Below, piece by piece: positions 21,589 through 31,126 of a stretch of DNA of 64,000 nt; the stretch's first letter is position 1, and each line of letters opens with the position of its first letter. The stretch is from Leucothrix arctica. Lineage in GTDB: Bacteria; Pseudomonadota; Gammaproteobacteria; Thiotrichales; Thiotrichaceae. The position numbers and the translations under genes are program-made. A model generated the notes under the pieces. The model did not search any database and was not told the origin of the DNA. It saw only the letters and a list, made by a program, of their open reading frames with translations. The DNA lies in the NCBI RefSeq assembly GCF_003172895.1, contig NZ_QGKL01000042.1, positions 62,001 through 126,000 of the forward strand, written 5' to 3'.

Positions 21589-23040
21589 ATGCGTACTCTA
21601 CTATTTAGCTTAATACTGGTCGGTTCTTACTCTTTTATTTCACCCGCGATGGCGTGGAAAACAGAAGCAGCGAACTTTACTACCCACAATACCTTTAACG
21701 ATAGCTCATGGCAGAGTATTGGTTTTAGACAGGCTTACACGACGACGCCAATTGTCGTTACCGTGCCGTCAACCAGTGGTGGTGACCCTTCAACCACAAG
21801 GGTTCGAAATGTCAGTACCAGCGGTTTTGAAGTAAGCCCAGTTGAGCCATTCGCTAGAGACGGTGTTCACCTTGCTATGGATAGTGCCTATGTTGCTATT
21901 GAGCCAGGTGTTCACTTGTTTCCTGATGGTACGGTGATCGAAGCTGGGTTTGTTAACACCAGTAAAACGCAACAAGCTAGTAATGTAAGCGGGGTGAACA
22001 GCTGGGAAAATGTAACACTTCAACATAACTTCGGCTCTCCACCAACGATAGTTGCTGCGATTCAAACAATGAACAATGAAACGGGAGAAAATGGCTCTCA
22101 AGCGCCGAGCGTTTCTTCTCTGCCATGGTTAACAATCGCCATCGATAATATTGCTGCCAATAGCTTTAGTGTTGCACTAGAGCGTTCTGAGTCAAGCCAA
22201 GGAAGTGTCACTCAGAATGAACAGATCGGCTACATTGCCATTGCACAAGGAGCGGGTGGTAGTTTTACGGATAGTCAAAATCAGAGCATTCAATTTCTAG
22301 GTGAAACGTCACTTACAAACATACGTGGTTGGAGTAATGGAGACACCACTCACACATTCGGAACACCATTTAGCAGCGCACCTGTCAGCGTGTTCTCAAA
22401 AAACACCCGCAATAATCCAGACGGTGGTTGGTTACGACGTAATGGCAGTACTTCAACTACGTCGATTAATTTACGAGTCGATGAAGAAACCGATAATGAC
22501 AGCGAACGAACTATCACCACCGCTGATGCAGAGGCGGCAGGTATATTGAGCTTCTCAAAAGGCTTTGACGTCAACTTCCCACCCAACTTTACGATGCAGA
22601 AAAGCTCATCTGTTATTTCAGACCCACTTAATGGCACGACAAACCCGAAAGCTATTCCCGGTGCCGTGATCGAATATACCTTGCTTGTCACCAATACTGG
22701 CTATGACTACACAGATAATGATCAGTTTGAAATATCAGATGCGTTGCCACCTGATACAGCACTGATGGTGACCGACATACCCAGTGGAATAGGGCCAATA
22801 GGTTTTGTGGATGGCTCAACCAGCAGTAATACAACTTGGTTGTTTTCTGGCTTATCCAGCTTGACCGATAGCATTGACTTCTCAACGGATGGAAGTGATT
22901 TCAGTTATGCGCCAACAGCAGGTGGAGAGGGTACAGACGCGGCAGTGACTCATATCACGTTAAAACCTAAAGGCTCTTTTGCAGCTGATCCACCGTCTAA
23001 CCCTAGCGCTATTTATACCTATCGGGTGATTATTCAGTAA
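21589..23040 (+). CDS. Secreted protein with H-type-lectin-like repeats and a DUF11-like C-terminus
   Basis: A 483-residue exported protein with a signal peptide ending A-M-A at about residue 22. Three regions resemble H-type lectin (discoidin C-terminal) beta-sandwiches: around W-Q-S-I-G-F-R-Q-A-Y-T-T-T-P-I-V-V, W-E-N-V-T-L-Q-H-N-F-G-S-P-P-T-I-V and S-N-G-D-T-T-H-T-F-G-T-P-F. The last 130 residues contain P-G-A-V-I-E-Y-T-L-L-V-T-N-T-G, typical of DUF11-like surface repeats. It may bind sugars outside the cell or be a surface protein. No sorting motif is seen at the C-terminus. It is monocistronic. Confidence 0.65.
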   Translation: MRTLLFSLILVGSYSFISPAMAWKTEAANFTTHNTFNDSSWQSIGFRQAYTTTPIVVTVPSTSGGDPSTTRVRNVSTSGFEVSPVEPFARDGVHLAMDSAYVAIEPGVHLFPDGTVIEAGFVNTSKTQQASNVSGVNSWENVTLQHNFGSPPTIVAAIQTMNNETGENGSQAPSVSSLPWLTIAIDNIAANSFSVALERSESSQGSVTQNEQIGYIAIAQGAGGSFTDSQNQSIQFLGETSLTNIRGWSNGDTTHTFGTPFSSAPVSVFSKNTRNNPDGGWLRRNGSTSTTSINLRVDEETDNDSERTITTADAEAAGILSFSKGFDVNFPPNFTMQKSSSVISDPLNGTTNPKAIPGAVIEYTLLVTNTGYDYTDNDQFEISDALPPDTALMVTDIPSGIGPIGFVDGSTSSNTTWLFSGLSSLTDSIDFSTDGSDFSYAPTAGGEGTDAAVTHITLKPKGSFAADPPSNPSAIYTYRVIIQ

Positions 23041-25845: not shown

Positions 25846-26049
25846 GACAAAGTCCAAATGAGTGTTTGTGTTGATGATTTAAATAGTAATCATTCTCATT
25901 AATTTTGTTAAGTGGATAAATACAACCAGTGCGATAGATGAAAGCTATGACACAATTTTAGAGGTATTATCTCTATGAATAGGCGTAAGCCTTGTTCATG
26001 CTTTAGAAAACTTTTGTCACTGAACGTGTTACCCGCACAGGAAATAACC

Positions 26050-26592
26050 ATGACCAGCAACATCGTTAAAAACTGGTTCGCAAACGATTTTTCAAAACTA
26101 GCGCCAGAATTACAAGCGTTGCACCAATACGGCGGCAAACTTGTCGGTAAAGTAGACGTGGTATTAGGGACTGGAATCGCTGGTATCTTAGGTAAGCGAC
26201 TTCAAGCAAAACTAAACCTACCACCAGTTGGCACAAACGATCTCTGCGTCACGATCAGTCACAGTGATGTTGGTTTGCATTGGGATAGAAAATTTAACAA
26301 CACCACCGAAATGAAGTCTACCTTCGAGCCAATAAAAACAATCAAAGACGGCTACTGGATAGAAAAAACTGGGCCGCTACAGATGAAGTTAACCGTCGAT
26401 ATCAAAGATCACGGTTGGTACTGGCGTTGTTTGAGTTTTAGCTTATTTGGAGTGCTTTTACCTGTTTGGATGTTCCCAAAGTCAAAGGCGTACAAATACA
26501 TCGAGGAGGGTGGTTACAAGTTCTACGTGGGGTTTGAAGCCCCTGTGATTGGTTTGTTATTGTCTTACAGTGGCACGTTACAGAAACAGTAA
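26050..26592 (+). CDS. DUF4166 domain protein
   Basis: A protein of about 180 residues resembling DUF4166, a domain often found alone or fused to saccharopine-dehydrogenase-like proteins. The N-terminal L-A-P-E-L-Q-A-L-H-Q-Y-G-G-K-L-V-G-K-V-D-V segment and the internal W-D-R-K-F and K-L-T-V-D motifs support this. A short hydrophobic stretch (S-F-S-L-F-G-V-L-L-P-V-W-M-F-P) is typical of the domain and need not cross the membrane. The ATG at 26050 has AGGAAAT upstream; the in-frame ATG at 25975 would add 25 atypical residues. Confidence 0.72.
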   Translation: MTSNIVKNWFANDFSKLAPELQALHQYGGKLVGKVDVVLGTGIAGILGKRLQAKLNLPPVGTNDLCVTISHSDVGLHWDRKFNNTTEMKSTFEPIKTIKDGYWIEKTGPLQMKLTVDIKDHGWYWRCLSFSLFGVLLPVWMFPKSKAYKYIEEGGYKFYVGFEAPVIGLLLSYSGTLQKQ

Positions 26593-26679: not shown

Positions 26680-27354
26680 TTAAAACTCAACCTTGTTAGT
26701 CACTACACCATCAACTGCACGGTGCATTTCTTTGTGCTCGTCGTAGTAACCACTCACGGTGATTTCAATCTTGATAGGGCCTTCTTCTAAGTTCATAAAG
26801 AACCAACCGTGATAGCCAGGGAATGGTGCAGTAAACGTACCGCTTTGACCGAAGCCTTCGCCTTTGCTGTAAGCCTGTTCAAAGCCGTCAGGGTAGTTCG
26901 GTGCATCAGCGGTTGAAGGGTGGCCATGGAACTCATAAAACACTCCATCGCCTTTGGCGTTTAACACTTTCCATGAGTAGAGCAGTGACGAGTTTTGTTT
27001 CATGATGAATTTGTGTTCCATCTCACCCAAGTCTTCTAAATCAATCACGATTGTTTCAGATTTAAAGACTTTGTCTTCTAACTTAAGCAGACCGCGAATC
27101 GATTGATTAATCTCTTCGGCTTCTAGATCATATTTCTCAATATTGAAATTCATCGTCTGACCGAAATCAGTCCCCGCTTTTGCAGGTGCAGTCGTCTTAG
27201 ATAATGCTTTAACACCGGTTAGTTCACCGACACCCGTTGGGTCAATGCCATATTCTGCAGGTAATACAAAGGCTACAAGGAGTGCCGCAGCACCGATTGA
27301 TGAGACGATTAAGCGTTTAGTAATGGTTGAGTCTGGTTTTACGTCGTTTGTCAT
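26680..27354 (-). CDS. Membrane-anchored periplasmic protein of the HupE/DUF6152 cluster
   Basis: A 224-residue protein with one N-terminal membrane helix (R-L-I-V-S-S-I-G-A-A-A-L-L-V-A-F-V-L) followed by a soluble, presumably periplasmic, domain. That domain holds E-H-K-F-I-M-K, F-Y-E-F-H-G-H-P and G-Y-H-G-W-F-F-M-N-L, and ends with a beta-rich I-K-I-E-I-T-V-S-G-Y-Y-D. Related proteins are usually annotated only as transmembrane anchor proteins. The ATG at 27354 has AGGTGG five bases upstream. It is the last gene of a four-gene run with eight or fewer bases to the HupE gene. The histidine-rich patch might bind a metal, which is inference. Confidence 0.68.
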   Translation of the reverse strand: MTNDVKPDSTITKRLIVSSIGAAALLVAFVLPAEYGIDPTGVGELTGVKALSKTTAPAKAGTDFGQTMNFNIEKYDLEAEEINQSIRGLLKLEDKVFKSETIVIDLEDLGEMEHKFIMKQNSSLLYSWKVLNAKGDGVFYEFHGHPSTADAPNYPDGFEQAYSKGEGFGQSGTFTAPFPGYHGWFFMNLEEGPIKIEITVSGYYDEHKEMHRAVDGVVTNKVEF

Positions 27355-27361
27355 AAGCCAC

Positions 27362-28051
27362 CTAGGTAATAAAGAATCCAACGGTCTGCATTCCGAATAG
27401 CACTAAGCCAGCTCCGAATAACACGACGTTAGAGTCACGTGCAATGTTTGAGAAATTCTTGAGCGAACGGAGCCAAGAAAATAATAGAAAGAGGAAGGTA
27501 AGTGCGATGATTTGTCCAATCTCAACACCGACATTAAAGTAGATCATATTGCTGATTAGGCCATCTTCAGATAGCGAGAGGTCTTGGAGTTTAGACGACA
27601 GTCCAAAGCCATGCACAAGACCAAAACCAAACACCGCGATCTTAGGGTCAAGAAAGCGAATAGTACCGAGGTTTTCCAGTGCTTTGTAGCAGACCGATAA
27701 CCCAATAATGGCATCAATAAAGAATACGTTAACGTGTATGCCTGACAGTACGCCAAACAGCAGTGTGATCGAGTGACCAATCGCAAACAGGCTGACAAAC
27801 TTTATGACGTCCTTTAAGTCTCGTAAAAAGAAGATGACGCAAGCAAGGTAGAGTAAGTGGTCGTAACCCGTGACCATGTGTTTCGCACCCAAGTACATCA
27901 TTGGGAAAGCGTGTACGCCATCAAGTTGCATTAAGTATGACTGGTCTGTACCAGCTACACCGTGAGCAAAGGCTTGCCCAAGTATGCTGCTAGCGATGAT
28001 TACTAGCAGCAGTAATATTTTAGGTGTCGTTATGTCTGTCAGCTTTATCAT
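27362..28051 (-). CDS. HupE/UreJ family membrane protein
   Basis: A 229-residue membrane protein of the HupE/UreJ (UreJ_2) family, some members of which import nickel. Six or seven helices are predicted. Conserved features are G-Y-D-H-L-L-Y-L, F-A-I-G-H-S-I-T-L, F-G-L-V-H-G-F-G-L-S-S and F-N-V-G-V-E-I-G-Q, which place histidines inside the membrane. An N-terminal signal-like helix ends near F-A-H-G. No hydrogenase or urease genes are present, so a nickel role is not supported by context. It lies between two DUF6644-like genes and the anchored periplasmic protein. Confidence 0.82.
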   Translation of the reverse strand: MIKLTDITTPKILLLLVIIASSILGQAFAHGVAGTDQSYLMQLDGVHAFPMMYLGAKHMVTGYDHLLYLACVIFFLRDLKDVIKFVSLFAIGHSITLLFGVLSGIHVNVFFIDAIIGLSVCYKALENLGTIRFLDPKIAVFGFGLVHGFGLSSKLQDLSLSEDGLISNMIYFNVGVEIGQIIALTFLFLLFSWLRSLKNFSNIARDSNVVLFGAGLVLFGMQTVGFFIT

Positions 28052-28057
28052 CGGGAG

Positions 28058-28543
28058 TTACAAGTCTTCAACGTATGGAATGAAGCGACCTAATACGATC
28101 ACGCATGTCCATATAGTCAGTGACACTATCGCTACTACTTTTGCATAACGAGGCAAGTCTTGTGAGTCAGCGCCAGCATGTATTTTTGGTTGTATCGTCA
28201 GTATGTAGATGAGTGCATTAATCGCGGCAATAGCGATAAGCCCCATCTTGATTTTAAAGGCAATATTCACAAAGTAACGCTCAGGATCACCAACGACAAA
28301 CAGTGCGCCTGTTACTAAGTTGAGCAAGAAGCCGATTAGCGTGAGGGTGATAAATACGTCCACCGAGGTGATGGGTAATTTGCGAGCAAAACCTAGTGTA
28401 CGCAAATCTATAATGATCAAAGAACCAAACAGCAAGCACAGACCCAAGAAATGGATCATTTCCATACTCGGCCAAACCCAGCTGTTGTTTGTGATAAAAG
28501 CGTTTAGTGGTGTGGCCGTTAGCCAATCAATTACGTCATTCAT
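28058..28543 (-). CDS. DUF6644-like four-helix membrane protein (second copy)
   Basis: A 161-residue membrane protein with four helices. The first contains V-W-P-S-M-E-M-I-H-F-L-G-L-C-L-L-F-G-S and is followed by I-D-L-R-T-L-G-F-A. This H-x-L-G ... R-x-L-G-F-A pattern is shared with the upstream gene, so the two are distant duplicates and probably assemble together. A single conserved histidine in the first helix is not enough to claim haem binding. Six bases separate it from HupE. I place it with DUF6644 from memory of that family. Confidence 0.65.
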   Translation of the reverse strand: MNDVIDWLTATPLNAFITNNSWVWPSMEMIHFLGLCLLFGSLIIIDLRTLGFARKLPITSVDVFITLTLIGFLLNLVTGALFVVGDPERYFVNIAFKIKMGLIAIAAINALIYILTIQPKIHAGADSQDLPRYAKVVAIVSLTIWTCVIVLGRFIPYVEDL

Positions 28544-28554
28544 TTGTCACACCC

Positions 28555-29016
28555 CTAAAGTACGTAGCCGATTAGACGGCCCGTTATTAATGCACCGACC
28601 CAAGCAATCACTGACCATGCTGCTAAATTTCGATCAGACTTTTTCACGTCGCCATCACCGTTTATGCAGACGTTTACTAAGCGTTGAGTCAAAAAAAGAC
28701 CGACAAATACTAAGACGATTTTGATAAGAAACGGTATGTTGTAAGCAAGCTCTGAAGCGCTCCCCAAAAACAGTCCGACCCCTGAAAGTAGGTTGATGAT
28801 GAATGCTACTTGAGCAATGCGCCAGTAGGATGCGAGTGAGGTCACGGGGATGACTTTAGCAAAGCCCAGTGCTCTAAACGCTAACATGAGCGATACACCG
28901 ACCAATGCGGCCATACCTAGCGCGTGCAGCGACAGTACGATCGGATAGCCCCATATGGAACTTGAAACATACATCCCAAGTGCTGAGTCTTCGAGTGAAA
29001 ATAGGAAATCTTCCAT
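28555..29016 (-). CDS. DUF6644-like four-helix membrane protein (first copy)
   Basis: A 153-residue membrane protein with four helices: W-G-Y-P-I-V-L-S-L-H-A-L-G-M-A-A-L-V-G-V-S-L, then F-R-A-L-G-F-A, I-A-Q-V-A-F-I-I-N-L-L-S-G-V-G-L-F, I-K-I-V-L-V-F-V-G-L-F-L and a final helix ending G-R-L-I-G-Y-V-L. It matches the DUF6644 pattern. It heads the four-gene membrane run, and the DUF6152 gene upstream is separated by 262 bases that contain a terminator. Its function is unknown. Confidence 0.7.
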   Translation of the reverse strand: MEDFLFSLEDSALGMYVSSSIWGYPIVLSLHALGMAALVGVSLMLAFRALGFAKVIPVTSLASYWRIAQVAFIINLLSGVGLFLGSASELAYNIPFLIKIVLVFVGLFLTQRLVNVCINGDGDVKKSDRNLAAWSVIAWVGALITGRLIGYVL

Positions 29017-29218
29017 GGGGTTCTCTAGAGATAAATTGGTTAAAAAATGTGATCAAAGATAGACACGTTAAATGTATTTATTGTTGAGTCTGCTTGATTA
29101 GTTATTAGGTAAGAGCTTAGTTCAAACGTTATGACTAAGACATCACATTTACCCAGATTCACATCATCTTCACATGTTCTACACATTTGCAGTGTTAACA
29201 ATAAATTTTACATAAACA

Positions 29219-29258
29219 CCGCTATCCAAAAATCAGGGGATTAGCATTCGGATAGCGG
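29219..29258 (-). terminator. Stem-loop after the DUF6152 gene
   Basis: CCGCTATCC (29219-29227) and GGATAGCGG (29250-29258) form a perfect nine-base stem with a 22-base loop, 20 bases past the DUF6152 stop on the minus strand. Only a weak T-rich stretch follows. The rest of the 29017-29278 interval shows no gene and presumably holds the promoter of the membrane run. Confidence 0.6.
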
Positions 29259-29278
29259 CTTTTACAACGCTTATGGCG

Positions 29279-30373
29279 TTATGACTTTTCGGTAAAACCT
29301 TCTTCTACCGTTAAGTCGTCACAGGCAAAGCTTTCAAACGCATCTGTGGTTTTAACTGACTTGTTAAGGTGGCTAAATGGCTTAGCAAGATAAACAGGGT
29401 CAGTCATTGTGTATTCACGCACTAACTCACCTTTGTCATCAATATAGAAAGTCTCAGCGACTTCCATTTGGTCACTATGCGGAATAGAGGCTTTTGAACG
29501 CCCGCCAATGACTGCGATGAAACCTTCAGCAAATCCTTTGGTTTTAACCTCAAGTTTACCGTCTTTCCAAGTGCCTACAGAGTAGCCCGCCAGCGTTGGT
29601 TCGATCTTGTCTGGAAACTTGCCATCGAGATGGATTTTACGAACCACGTCCATAAAGCCGTAGGTCAACGTGATTTCCGTTGCAGACTGTTCGAACTTAT
29701 TAATCATCTGGTCAAAGCGATAATCAAGAATGATGTTAGTCGGTTTACAGTTGAAACGAGGGTTGTCAGCTGAAGTCCATTTGTTACCTACATCTTTCGC
29801 AGCTTGTGTTAACTCATAAGCAGGCGGTCGTCCAACACCATAAGCTACCGGTGGGCCATCCGCTACTGGCTCTCCCCAGTTACCCGATAAGTCTGGGACG
29901 TTGAGGGTAGCACCCGCTTTTTTAGCGGCAGCTTCAAGTGCAGCAGCATCTAGTTTTGGGTTAACTATTTTGCCAGATTTATCAAACGAGCCGTAACGTG
30001 ACAGCATGCGACCATCACTAAAAGTAACGGTGTCTGTGTAACACGTCGTTGGTTCTTTGCGGGCAGGTGAGCCAGCGATTTTGATTTCAGTGCCTTTAGA
30101 AAATAACTCTTTCTTCCAGCCTTTGCGTTTTAGCAAACTGCCTGAACGCAACTCACAACGCCAGTTGGCGACTTTACCTGCATCATCTTTAACGTCGAAA
30201 TAGACATACGAATGGGGGTTTACGAAGCGTACTCGGGTGACTGTTCCTGTTTTTTCTAAGGTCTTGGATAGGTCGAATTGACCGTTTACACCGTGATGTC
30301 CAAAACTGACACTGGGAATAATGGCCATACTTGCTAAAACTGATATTGCACCAGTAATAATTTTCTTTTGCAT
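29279..30373 (-). CDS. DUF6152 family exported protein
   Basis: A 364-residue protein with a signal peptide ending near S-F-G. It continues H-H-G-V-N-G-Q-F-D and V-R-F-V-N-P-H-S-Y-V-Y-F-D-V, the start of DUF6152. The first 140 residues look like a small beta-barrel of the OB kind, with W-R-C-E-L-R-S-G-S-L-L and K-I-A-G-S-P-A-R. The remainder, from about 150, is a second domain with C-K-P-T-N-I-I-L-D-Y-R-F-D and repeated beta-strands. Proteins like this are frequent in marine bacteria and uncharacterised. The H-H motif right after the signal is a possible metal ligand. It is upstream of, and on the same strand as, the DUF6644/HupE run. Confidence 0.72.
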   Translation of the reverse strand: MQKKIITGAISVLASMAIIPSVSFGHHGVNGQFDLSKTLEKTGTVTRVRFVNPHSYVYFDVKDDAGKVANWRCELRSGSLLKRKGWKKELFSKGTEIKIAGSPARKEPTTCYTDTVTFSDGRMLSRYGSFDKSGKIVNPKLDAAALEAAAKKAGATLNVPDLSGNWGEPVADGPPVAYGVGRPPAYELTQAAKDVGNKWTSADNPRFNCKPTNIILDYRFDQMINKFEQSATEITLTYGFMDVVRKIHLDGKFPDKIEPTLAGYSVGTWKDGKLEVKTKGFAEGFIAVIGGRSKASIPHSDQMEVAETFYIDDKGELVREYTMTDPVYLAKPFSHLNKSVKTTDAFESFACDDLTVEEGFTEKS

Positions 30374-30652
30374 GAAGCTCTCCTCCTTGTACCCGCTGGA
30401 AAATCCAGTAGGTTAATTTCTGCTCCTTGAGTACTGTTTCAGATACTTTATTGGTGAAACACACTGCAAAAAGAGGCGATAACACATTTATTTAAAACGA
30501 TAATAATAAATTATGCAATATAAAATCGATAATATTAACTTTAAAAGTATTTAATCAATTATTTTTATTATCGTTTTAATACCGGAAAATTCGTAACAAA
30601 GGCGCTACAGCGCGTAAAATAAAGTTTCTTCTAACCAGCTGTTGGTCTACTT
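30374..30652. other. Divergent promoter interval, AT-rich
   Basis: This 279-base interval separates the divergently read DUF6152 and DUF6653 genes. It has no credible reading frame. From about 30480 to 30600 it is strongly AT-rich, with TTATCGTTTTAA repeated in both orientations (near 30495 and 30568), which suits a curved promoter region. No specific operator can be named. Confidence 0.4.
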
Positions 30653-31126
30653 ATGGATATGAAAAAAGGCCTTTCAAAAATTTTTCTGCCAGATGAAGAG
30701 AGTTGGCTGCACCATGCAAACCCTTGGTCAATATGGACTCGGTTTGCAACGCTACCCTTTATTGTTTTAGCCGTATGGTCGAGGGTTTGGTTAGGCTGGT
30801 ACTGCCTTATTCCTATTGTTATTTTGGTGGTTTGGGTAGTGGTGAACCCGCGTTTATTTGCGAAGCCTACTAGCTTTGATAACTGGGGCGCTAAAGCGGT
30901 ATTAGGGGAGAGGGTTTATATCACGGACAAGGACGCTGCTAGTTTAGAAAAACACAAACTACCGATATTGATTTTGAATGGCTTGCAGACGATAGGTGGG
31001 TTGATCTTAATTTATGGTCTCTGGGATTTGAATATTTATCTGACGTTGCATGGGATGAGTTTTGTCTATTTGGCAAAGATGTGGTTTCTGGACCGCATGG
31101 TTTGGTTGTATGAGGATTCTCAGTAG
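30653..31126 (+). CDS. DUF6653 family membrane protein
   Basis: A 157-residue protein with a short soluble N-terminus (E-S-W-L-H-H-A-N-P-W-S-I-W-T-R) followed by two close helices (L-P-F-I-V-L-A-V-W-S and L-I-P-I-V-I-L-V-V-W-V-V-V). A V-N-P-R-L-F motif and F-D-N-W-G-A-K-A-V-L-G-E-R follow, then two more helices. This arrangement matches DUF6653. Its function is unknown. It has its own promoter space and no operon partner. Confidence 0.72.
   Translation: MDMKKGLSKIFLPDEESWLHHANPWSIWTRFATLPFIVLAVWSRVWLGWYCLIPIVILVVWVVVNPRLFAKPTSFDNWGAKAVLGERVYITDKDAASLEKHKLPILILNGLQTIGGLILIYGLWDLNIYLTLHGMSFVYLAKMWFLDRMVWLYEDSQ

Follow-up and report, generated by a model that had tools for sequence, protein, structure and literature searches.

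A five-gene block of Leucothrix arctica links DUF6152, with its conserved, predicted N-terminal histidines, to CopD-like DUF6644 proteins and suggests transition-metal handling

Background

The genes between positions 26680 and 30373 of a 64,000-nucleotide stretch of Leucothrix arctica (contig NZ_QGKL01000042.1; the whole stretch is called the window) raise the question of what DUF6152 and DUF6644, two Pfam families without an assigned function, do beside a HupE/UreJ-2 permease. A sequence-only reading had placed five same-strand genes here, and five minus-strand open reading frames (ORFs) were confirmed: those of a DUF6152 protein, two DUF6644 proteins (DUF6644a and DUF6644b), the permease (HupE) and an anchored periplasmic protein. 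That reading had proposed a single envelope complex and had stated that none of the five has a known function. The latter was too strong, since transport of Ni/Cu as permeases is known or proposed for HupE/UreJ-2 proteins (PMC12537917, PMC5557971), while DUF6644 resembles CopD (see below).

A literature search found no paper naming DUF6152 or DUF6644. A copper histidine brace is made up of an N-terminal His and a second His (PMC10952591). CopC and DUF1775 are both N-terminal-His copper proteins whose genes commonly adjoin copD, and they have been proposed to feed CopD (PMC12362106). N-terminal-His 'anglerase' domains fused to HupE/UreJ-2 permeases were published in 2025; they bind Cu (74 nM) and Ni (220 nM) and were proposed to capture metal for the permease, with DUF6152 unmentioned (PMC12537917). 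We describe the five genes as two putative metal-handling envelope modules, DUF6152 with DUF6644 and HupE with the anchored protein, both of which point to transition metals.

Results

First, the linkage of DUF6152 and DUF6644 was surveyed in 397 genomes of the phylum. PF20349 (DUF6644) was present in 32 and PF19649 (DUF6152) in 48 genomes. DUF6152 was present in 32/32 of the PF20349 genomes (hypergeometric probability of the co-occurrence 1.5e-35, uncorrected for relatedness of the genomes) and lay within 6 kb in 30 of them. Most of the other DUF6152 genes adjoin a DUF6644 relative that is missed by PF20349 and caught by the profile of our alignment A1 (27 DUF6644 homologues). When these relatives are counted, DUF6644 is adjacent to DUF6152 in 45 of the 48 DUF6152 genomes; the exceptions are G300, G481 and G493, the last two of which hold a DUF6644 pair elsewhere. 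Two layouts can be seen, namely a short DUF6152 with a single DUF6644, and DUF6152 with a tandem DUF6644 pair. A long DUF6152 with DUF6644a and DUF6644b was found in G513, G600 and G632, genomes of the same class as the window, and in the latter two DUF6152 and DUF6644a form one ORF (loci L071 and L073). The fusions are strong evidence that DUF6152 and DUF6644a work together; with the gene linkage, they mark the two families as partners. Other genomes encode the C-terminal exported domain of DUF6152 in a gene of its own. In one genome (G251, locus L078 5891-7561), the copper-associated DUF411 lies directly upstream of the pair.

Other DUF6152 contexts were also noted. A small exported histidine-phosphatase gene adjoins the DUF6152-DUF6644 pair in four genomes (L074, L127, L128, L028). 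The genome of the window has a second, solitary DUF6152 of 369 aa (43% identical; contig C34, L015 8295-9404) without DUF6644, adjoining YcaO-type and DedA-type genes. No DUF6152 relative was found in viral contigs.

The N-terminus of DUF6152 gives the second line of evidence. The window protein scores 68.9 bits to PF19649 (Pfam cut-off 27). An AXA-type export site lies exactly before His-His in 39/39 distinct DUF6152 proteins, and the same arrangement was seen in 20/20 further proteins picked by Pfam match alone (59/59 in total). The eight profile matches that lack His-His are fragments, either internal or truncated. A crude signal-peptide scorer ranks the site before His-His first in 32 of the 39 proteins. 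Only four positions are conserved in 61/61 distinct mature sequences: H1, H2 and a P-H near residue 29, which together are what a histidine-brace site would need. Full conservation is limited to three histidines and one proline, and with two of these histidines at the predicted mature start this suggests that DUF6152 is an unrecognised copper-type metal-binding family working with CopD-like membrane proteins. Tat-like twin-arginine signals are present in ten DUF6152 proteins (L140, L141, L146-L148, L150, L151, L057, L061, L045), which might be exported folded and metal-loaded. The N-terminal domain has the strand order of an OB-fold in a low-confidence model (Z ~9.0 to PriB/SSB, tied rows). 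Profile searches of the PDB with alignments A1-A4 found no solved relative.

Third, we compared the two membrane proteins to CopD. DUF6644b scores 30.7 bits to PF20349 (Pfam cut-off 27, E 4e-7). DUF6644a scores 21.7 bits, below the same cut-off (E 2e-4), and shares all invariant columns of A1; judged by these columns it is clearly homologous to the family despite the sub-threshold score. The common H-x-L-G...R-x-L-G-F-A pattern of the sequence-only reading is real, with H31, G79, K99, W145, G152 and R153 invariant in the 27 homologues. One DUF6644 member (L063, 6.6e-22 to DUF6644) passes the Pfam cut-off of CopD (36.1 vs 32.1 bits, E 8.9e-9), and two more match CopD at 3.5e-6 and 2.2e-4. In hhalign, DUF6644 H31/G79/K99 align with the invariant H157/G210/K236 of six true CopD proteins (alignment A7), so that DUF6644 carries the CopD hallmark of an invariant His in the first helix, a Gly in the next helix and a Lys before the third. 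The hhalign probability against the CopD-family alignment is 86.7%, compared to 0.08% for HupE as control. By homology, DUF6644 is CopD-like.

The second module consists of HupE and the anchored protein. HupE scores 160 bits to PF13795 HupE_UreJ_2 (Pfam cut-off 24.5) and its H-x5-D-H motif is intact (H58..D64,H65). The motif is shared by 11/11 HupE proteins of the subfamily (alignment A3), and in all of them an AXA-type site precedes a predicted N-terminal His. The window HupE is not an anglerase itself, having fewer than 30 residues between the predicted N-terminal His and H-x5-D-H and no folded N-terminal-His domain. The anchored protein matched no Pfam family; its invariant residues are H152 and H191-G-W193 (alignment A2, numbered from TTG). 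The model of its periplasmic domain shows a GOLD-like beta-sandwich (residues 103-221 in TTG numbering; AlphaFold2 (AF2) predicted local distance difference test (pLDDT) 82-90 over most of it), and the confident part of the model superposes on the p24 GOLD domain 5azw_B with VIA Z 12.2 and root-mean-square deviation 1.8 over 90 residues. The modelled domain has the eight-strand jelly-roll of the GOLD type, a likeness of fold only. In the complete loci read, the anchored gene comes directly after HupE, and in some relatives (L019, L020) it is fused to the C-terminus of HupE. A second HupE-anchor copy in the genome of the window adjoins a copA-copB-copC-copD-DUF411 cluster (names from sequence; CopD confirmed). 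In another member of the genus (G028, L017 3424-11705), HupE-anchor lies inside a pyrroloquinoline quinone (PQQ)-alcohol-dehydrogenase/ABC-importer cluster followed by TolQ/ExbD-like genes, where metal supply for the quinoprotein is a possible role.

Two IMG/VR loci also hold parts of this module. In L091 (3031-6504), HupE-anchor, a metal-sensing repressor and a His-rich major facilitator superfamily (MFS) exporter lie between phage-type structural genes, and in L090 (1-615) an anchor copy precedes such genes. We read these as metal-resistance cargo of a prophage or gene-transfer-agent region.

We then asked where the two modules meet. L003, a contig labelled uncultured Rhodobacteraceae, carries the whole block with the gene order unchanged (57-73% identity). 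A neighbourhood survey, which had been proposed as a check on the single envelope complex, gave a divided answer: the DUF6152-DUF6644 pair is strongly linked, as seen above, and the five genes are rarely together. The single conserved five-gene complex was rejected because the contiguous set was found only in the window and L003; each pair is common without the other. A looser arrangement is present in three genomes (G409, G427 and G406; loci L083, L084 and L085), where HupE, anchor, DUF6644 pair, DUF6152 and several quinoprotein dehydrogenases lie within ~20 kb. These genomes are mutually related and of another class than the window (alphaproteobacterial-type), and the anchor itself is uncalled in G409. 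At the level of gene neighbourhoods, this looser clustering shows that the modules come together more often than expected by chance. Four genomes besides that of the window have HupE no more than 11 kb from DUF6644, with 0.22 expected; these four are closely related and therefore represent fewer independent events.

The clusters of L083-L085 also hold cytochromes c, a carboxylesterase and at least three exported proteins resembling the C-terminal domain of DUF6152. Because of these loci and L017, supply of lanthanide or calcium for PQQ dehydrogenases was considered and rejected, as most HupE-anchor and DUF6152-DUF6644 loci are without such an enzyme. In G029, of the same genus as the window, the anchored gene is reduced to a 3' remnant (L016 8114-8320, ~62 codons, 77% identical), all that is left of the block, and a deletion therefore seems to have removed the rest.

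The features of the locus are listed in Table 1. The packing of 6 to 12 bases previously given for the whole block applies to the four downstream genes (gaps of 11, 6 and ~7 bases, the last taken from the ATG at 27354) and not to DUF6152, which sits 262 bases upstream of them. The anchored protein most likely starts at this ATG and not at the TTG at 27381, a preference based on comparison with L003. The 262-base gap contains a strong hairpin (Table 1), and the corresponding gap of L003 likewise has one (RNA fold z -3.3). This element, which separates the periplasmic gene from the membrane genes, possibly acts in attenuation or mRNA processing. Promoter-like sites in the upstream region were no more than expected by chance, and the G+C content of the block is nothing unusual. 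No hydrogenase or urease lies nearby, as had been noted; the genome has no NiFe hydrogenase and its urease is on another contig, and an accessory role for either enzyme was rejected on these grounds.

Table 1 Features of the five-gene block. Positions are those of the window. Evidence denotes the match, alignment or model on which the assignment rests.
Feature	Positions	Strand	Evidence
DUF6152 protein, 364 aa	29279..30373	(-)	Pfam PF19649 4e-19
DUF6152 parts: signal peptide residues 1-25; predicted mature start His26-His27-Gly; N-terminal OB-like DUF6152 domain (low-confidence model); C-terminal exported domain
Hairpin gap, 262 bases	29017..29278	(-)	RNA fold z -5.0, hairpin within 29205-29285
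DUF6644a, four-helix CopD-like membrane protein	28555..29016	(-)	alignment A1; orthologue fused to DUF6152 in L071, L073
DUF6644b, second CopD-like membrane protein	28058..28543	(-)	Pfam PF20349 4e-7; hhalign; relatives match CopD PF05425
HupE/UreJ-2 permease, predicted N-terminal His (AFA|HGVAG, H30)	27362..28051	(-)	Pfam PF13795 3e-47, alignment A3
Transmembrane-anchored periplasmic protein, GOLD-like beta-sandwich	26680..27354	(-)	alignment A2; AF2 model
Upstream region, presumed promoter and strong ribosome-binding site (aaggaggagagcttcATG)	30374..30652	(-)	sequence

On the opposite strand, genes of two other uncharacterised families border the block, DUF4166 (25975-26592) and DUF6653 (30653-31126). 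Elsewhere in the window, a 483-aa ORF (21589-23040) has a sub-threshold H-type lectin match.

Discussion

The above results are consistent with an operon for transition-metal acquisition and handling, in which DUF6152 would capture the metal in the periplasm and hand it over to DUF6644a/b, and HupE with its anchored partner would provide a second import route. We give this reading about an even chance of being correct. Copper would be the most likely metal and nickel the next. The gene content, linkage, fusions, conservation and the homology to CopD and HupE/UreJ-2 are observed, whereas the cleavage site, the metal and its site, the direction of transport and any contact between the modules are inferred. 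The earlier suggestion of metal uptake or redox chemistry holds as a direction, given the N-terminal-His periplasmic protein, the CopD-like proteins, the HupE permease and the metal-resistance neighbourhoods.

Three steps can be proposed. In the first, which we hold strongly, DUF6152 would be exported and trimmed to a protein starting His-His, and its N-terminal amine and imidazole, together with the histidine of the invariant Pro-His, would form a histidine-brace-like metal site. In the second, held with moderate confidence, metal-loaded DUF6152 would dock on DUF6644a/b, as thought for CopC and DUF1775 with CopD. In the third, held more weakly, HupE/UreJ-2, with its own predicted N-terminal His and H-x5-D-H, would move metal across the inner membrane, with the anchored GOLD-like protein as a periplasmic partner dedicated to it. 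An excess of soluble DUF6152 over the membrane proteins may result from the hairpin that follows its gene.

Several observations weigh against this reading. In the window DUF6152, the site before His-His ranks second in the crude scorer, another site scoring better. The DUF6152 model (mean pLDDT 47 with two sequences) is too poor to show a brace, and therefore we make no claim on metal geometry. The window DUF6644a and DUF6644b have no Pfam match to CopD PF05425; as one relative passes this cut-off and these two do not, we regard the family as related to CopD and do not file it as CopD. The hhalign probability of DUF6644 against A7 is only 2.8%, with the register right, and we therefore relied on the Pfam CopD match of the DUF6644 member instead. 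The single-DUF6644 pairs are without a consistent metal neighbour, and the contiguous block is as rare as described above. Finally, the plasmid contexts of HupE-anchor favour Ni/Co resistance over copper, and DUF6644, which also weakly matches other CopD-like families, may have a redox role. The latter two points lead to the alternative explanations.

The DUF6644 pair could be a membrane redox module that binds haem b (or quinone) via His31 and nearby residues and exchanges electrons with periplasmic DUF6152 to serve quinoprotein dehydrogenases, the reduction of siderophore iron or a similar process, while HupE-anchor only supplies metal. Besides CopD, DUF6644 weakly resembles UPF0093 and DUF2269/DUF4149. 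Both modules lie amid PQQ dehydrogenases and cytochromes c in the three genomes with the looser arrangement, and 4 genomes vs 0.35 expected have PepSY-TM genes no more than 6.5 kb from DUF6644; such genes also adjoin the L003 block. However, a b-type haem usually needs two histidines and each DUF6644 protein has a single invariant membrane histidine, DUF6152 is without a haem motif, and most DUF6152-DUF6644 pairs are without a redox neighbour. We consider the redox module unlikely.

The whole operon may otherwise serve Ni2+, for uptake towards urease or for sequestration under excess, with DUF6152 as a nickel protein like DUF4198, an N-terminal-His protein that can prefer Ni (PMC12537917). HupE-anchor lies among Ni/Co or heavy-metal resistance genes in 8/9 plasmid/prophage loci read, the neighbours being RcnA, an RcnR-type repressor with an MFS exporter, and CzcA-type resistance-nodulation-division (RND) pumps. 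A HupE/UreJ-like gene is the most Ni-induced gene of a Sphingobium (PMC5557971), and the genome of the window does hold a urease. DUF6152-DUF6644 itself is without a Ni-linked neighbour in the loci read, and its CopD-likeness and His-His-plus-His constellation favour copper. An operon for nickel or cobalt homeostasis seems improbable to us.

That two unrelated modules stand side by side by chance, co-carried by horizontal transfer without a shared function, would fit the confinement of the contiguous block to two loci, its apparent gain and loss in G029 and the abundance of each module alone, but is quite improbable given the order conserved at 57-73% identity in a distant organism, the HupE-DUF6644 proximity in four further (closely related) genomes and the metal-type character of both modules.

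The reading of the operon as transition-metal handling can be extended. DUF6152 may be a histidine-brace (His-His...Pro-His) family on an OB-like scaffold, DUF6152-DUF6644 may be a third widespread CopC/CopD-type metal-transfer pair, and the anglerase of HupE may here be supplied in trans; this extension is tentative, and taken as a whole we lean slightly against it. Two Pfam families of unassigned function now have a joint, concrete and readily testable hypothesis, in which metal captured by an N-terminal His-His would pass to a CopD-like membrane protein. Under this hypothesis the histidine-brace proteins, a small group, would gain a candidate family with a candidate fold, and DUF6152 would be linked to the HupE/UreJ-2 permeases, which were tied to N-terminal-His metal capture only in 2025. 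The hypothesis also bears on the passage of Cu and Ni across the bacterial inner membrane, for which import of the CopD type has yet to be proven.

Comparison with known systems

HupE is the nickel permease of rhizobial hydrogenase clusters. The window HupE belongs to the same HupE/UreJ superfamily and has the H-x5-D-H motif (HupE/UreJ cited in PMC5557971), but is of the PF13795 branch, is without hydrogenase and has other neighbours. The anchored protein is a direct homologue of the proteins named 'transmembrane anchor protein' by NCBI PGAP on plasmids, which likewise come right after HupE; unlike in the window, these accompany RcnR/RcnA/CzcA-type genes and not DUF6152-DUF6644.

The anglerases Ang-1 and Ang-2 (PMC12537917) are similar in that an N-terminal-His domain serves a PF13795 HupE/UreJ-2 permease, as may be the case here for DUF6152. 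They differ in that DUF6152 is a separate soluble protein, and the window HupE is short, lacks the Ang domain and has a separate GOLD-like anchored partner. The closest parallels to DUF6152-DUF6644 in arrangement are CopC-CopD / PcoC-PcoD and B. subtilis YcnI(DUF1775)-YcnJ(CopC-CopD), where a periplasmic N-terminal-His protein adjoins or is fused with a CopD-type membrane protein and copper uptake has been proposed (PMC12362106). Unlike CopC and DUF1775, DUF6152 is of another family, has a predicted OB-like rather than beta-sandwich/cupredoxin fold and would start with His-His, and unlike in the CopD systems the membrane part consists of one or two small four-helix DUF6644 proteins.

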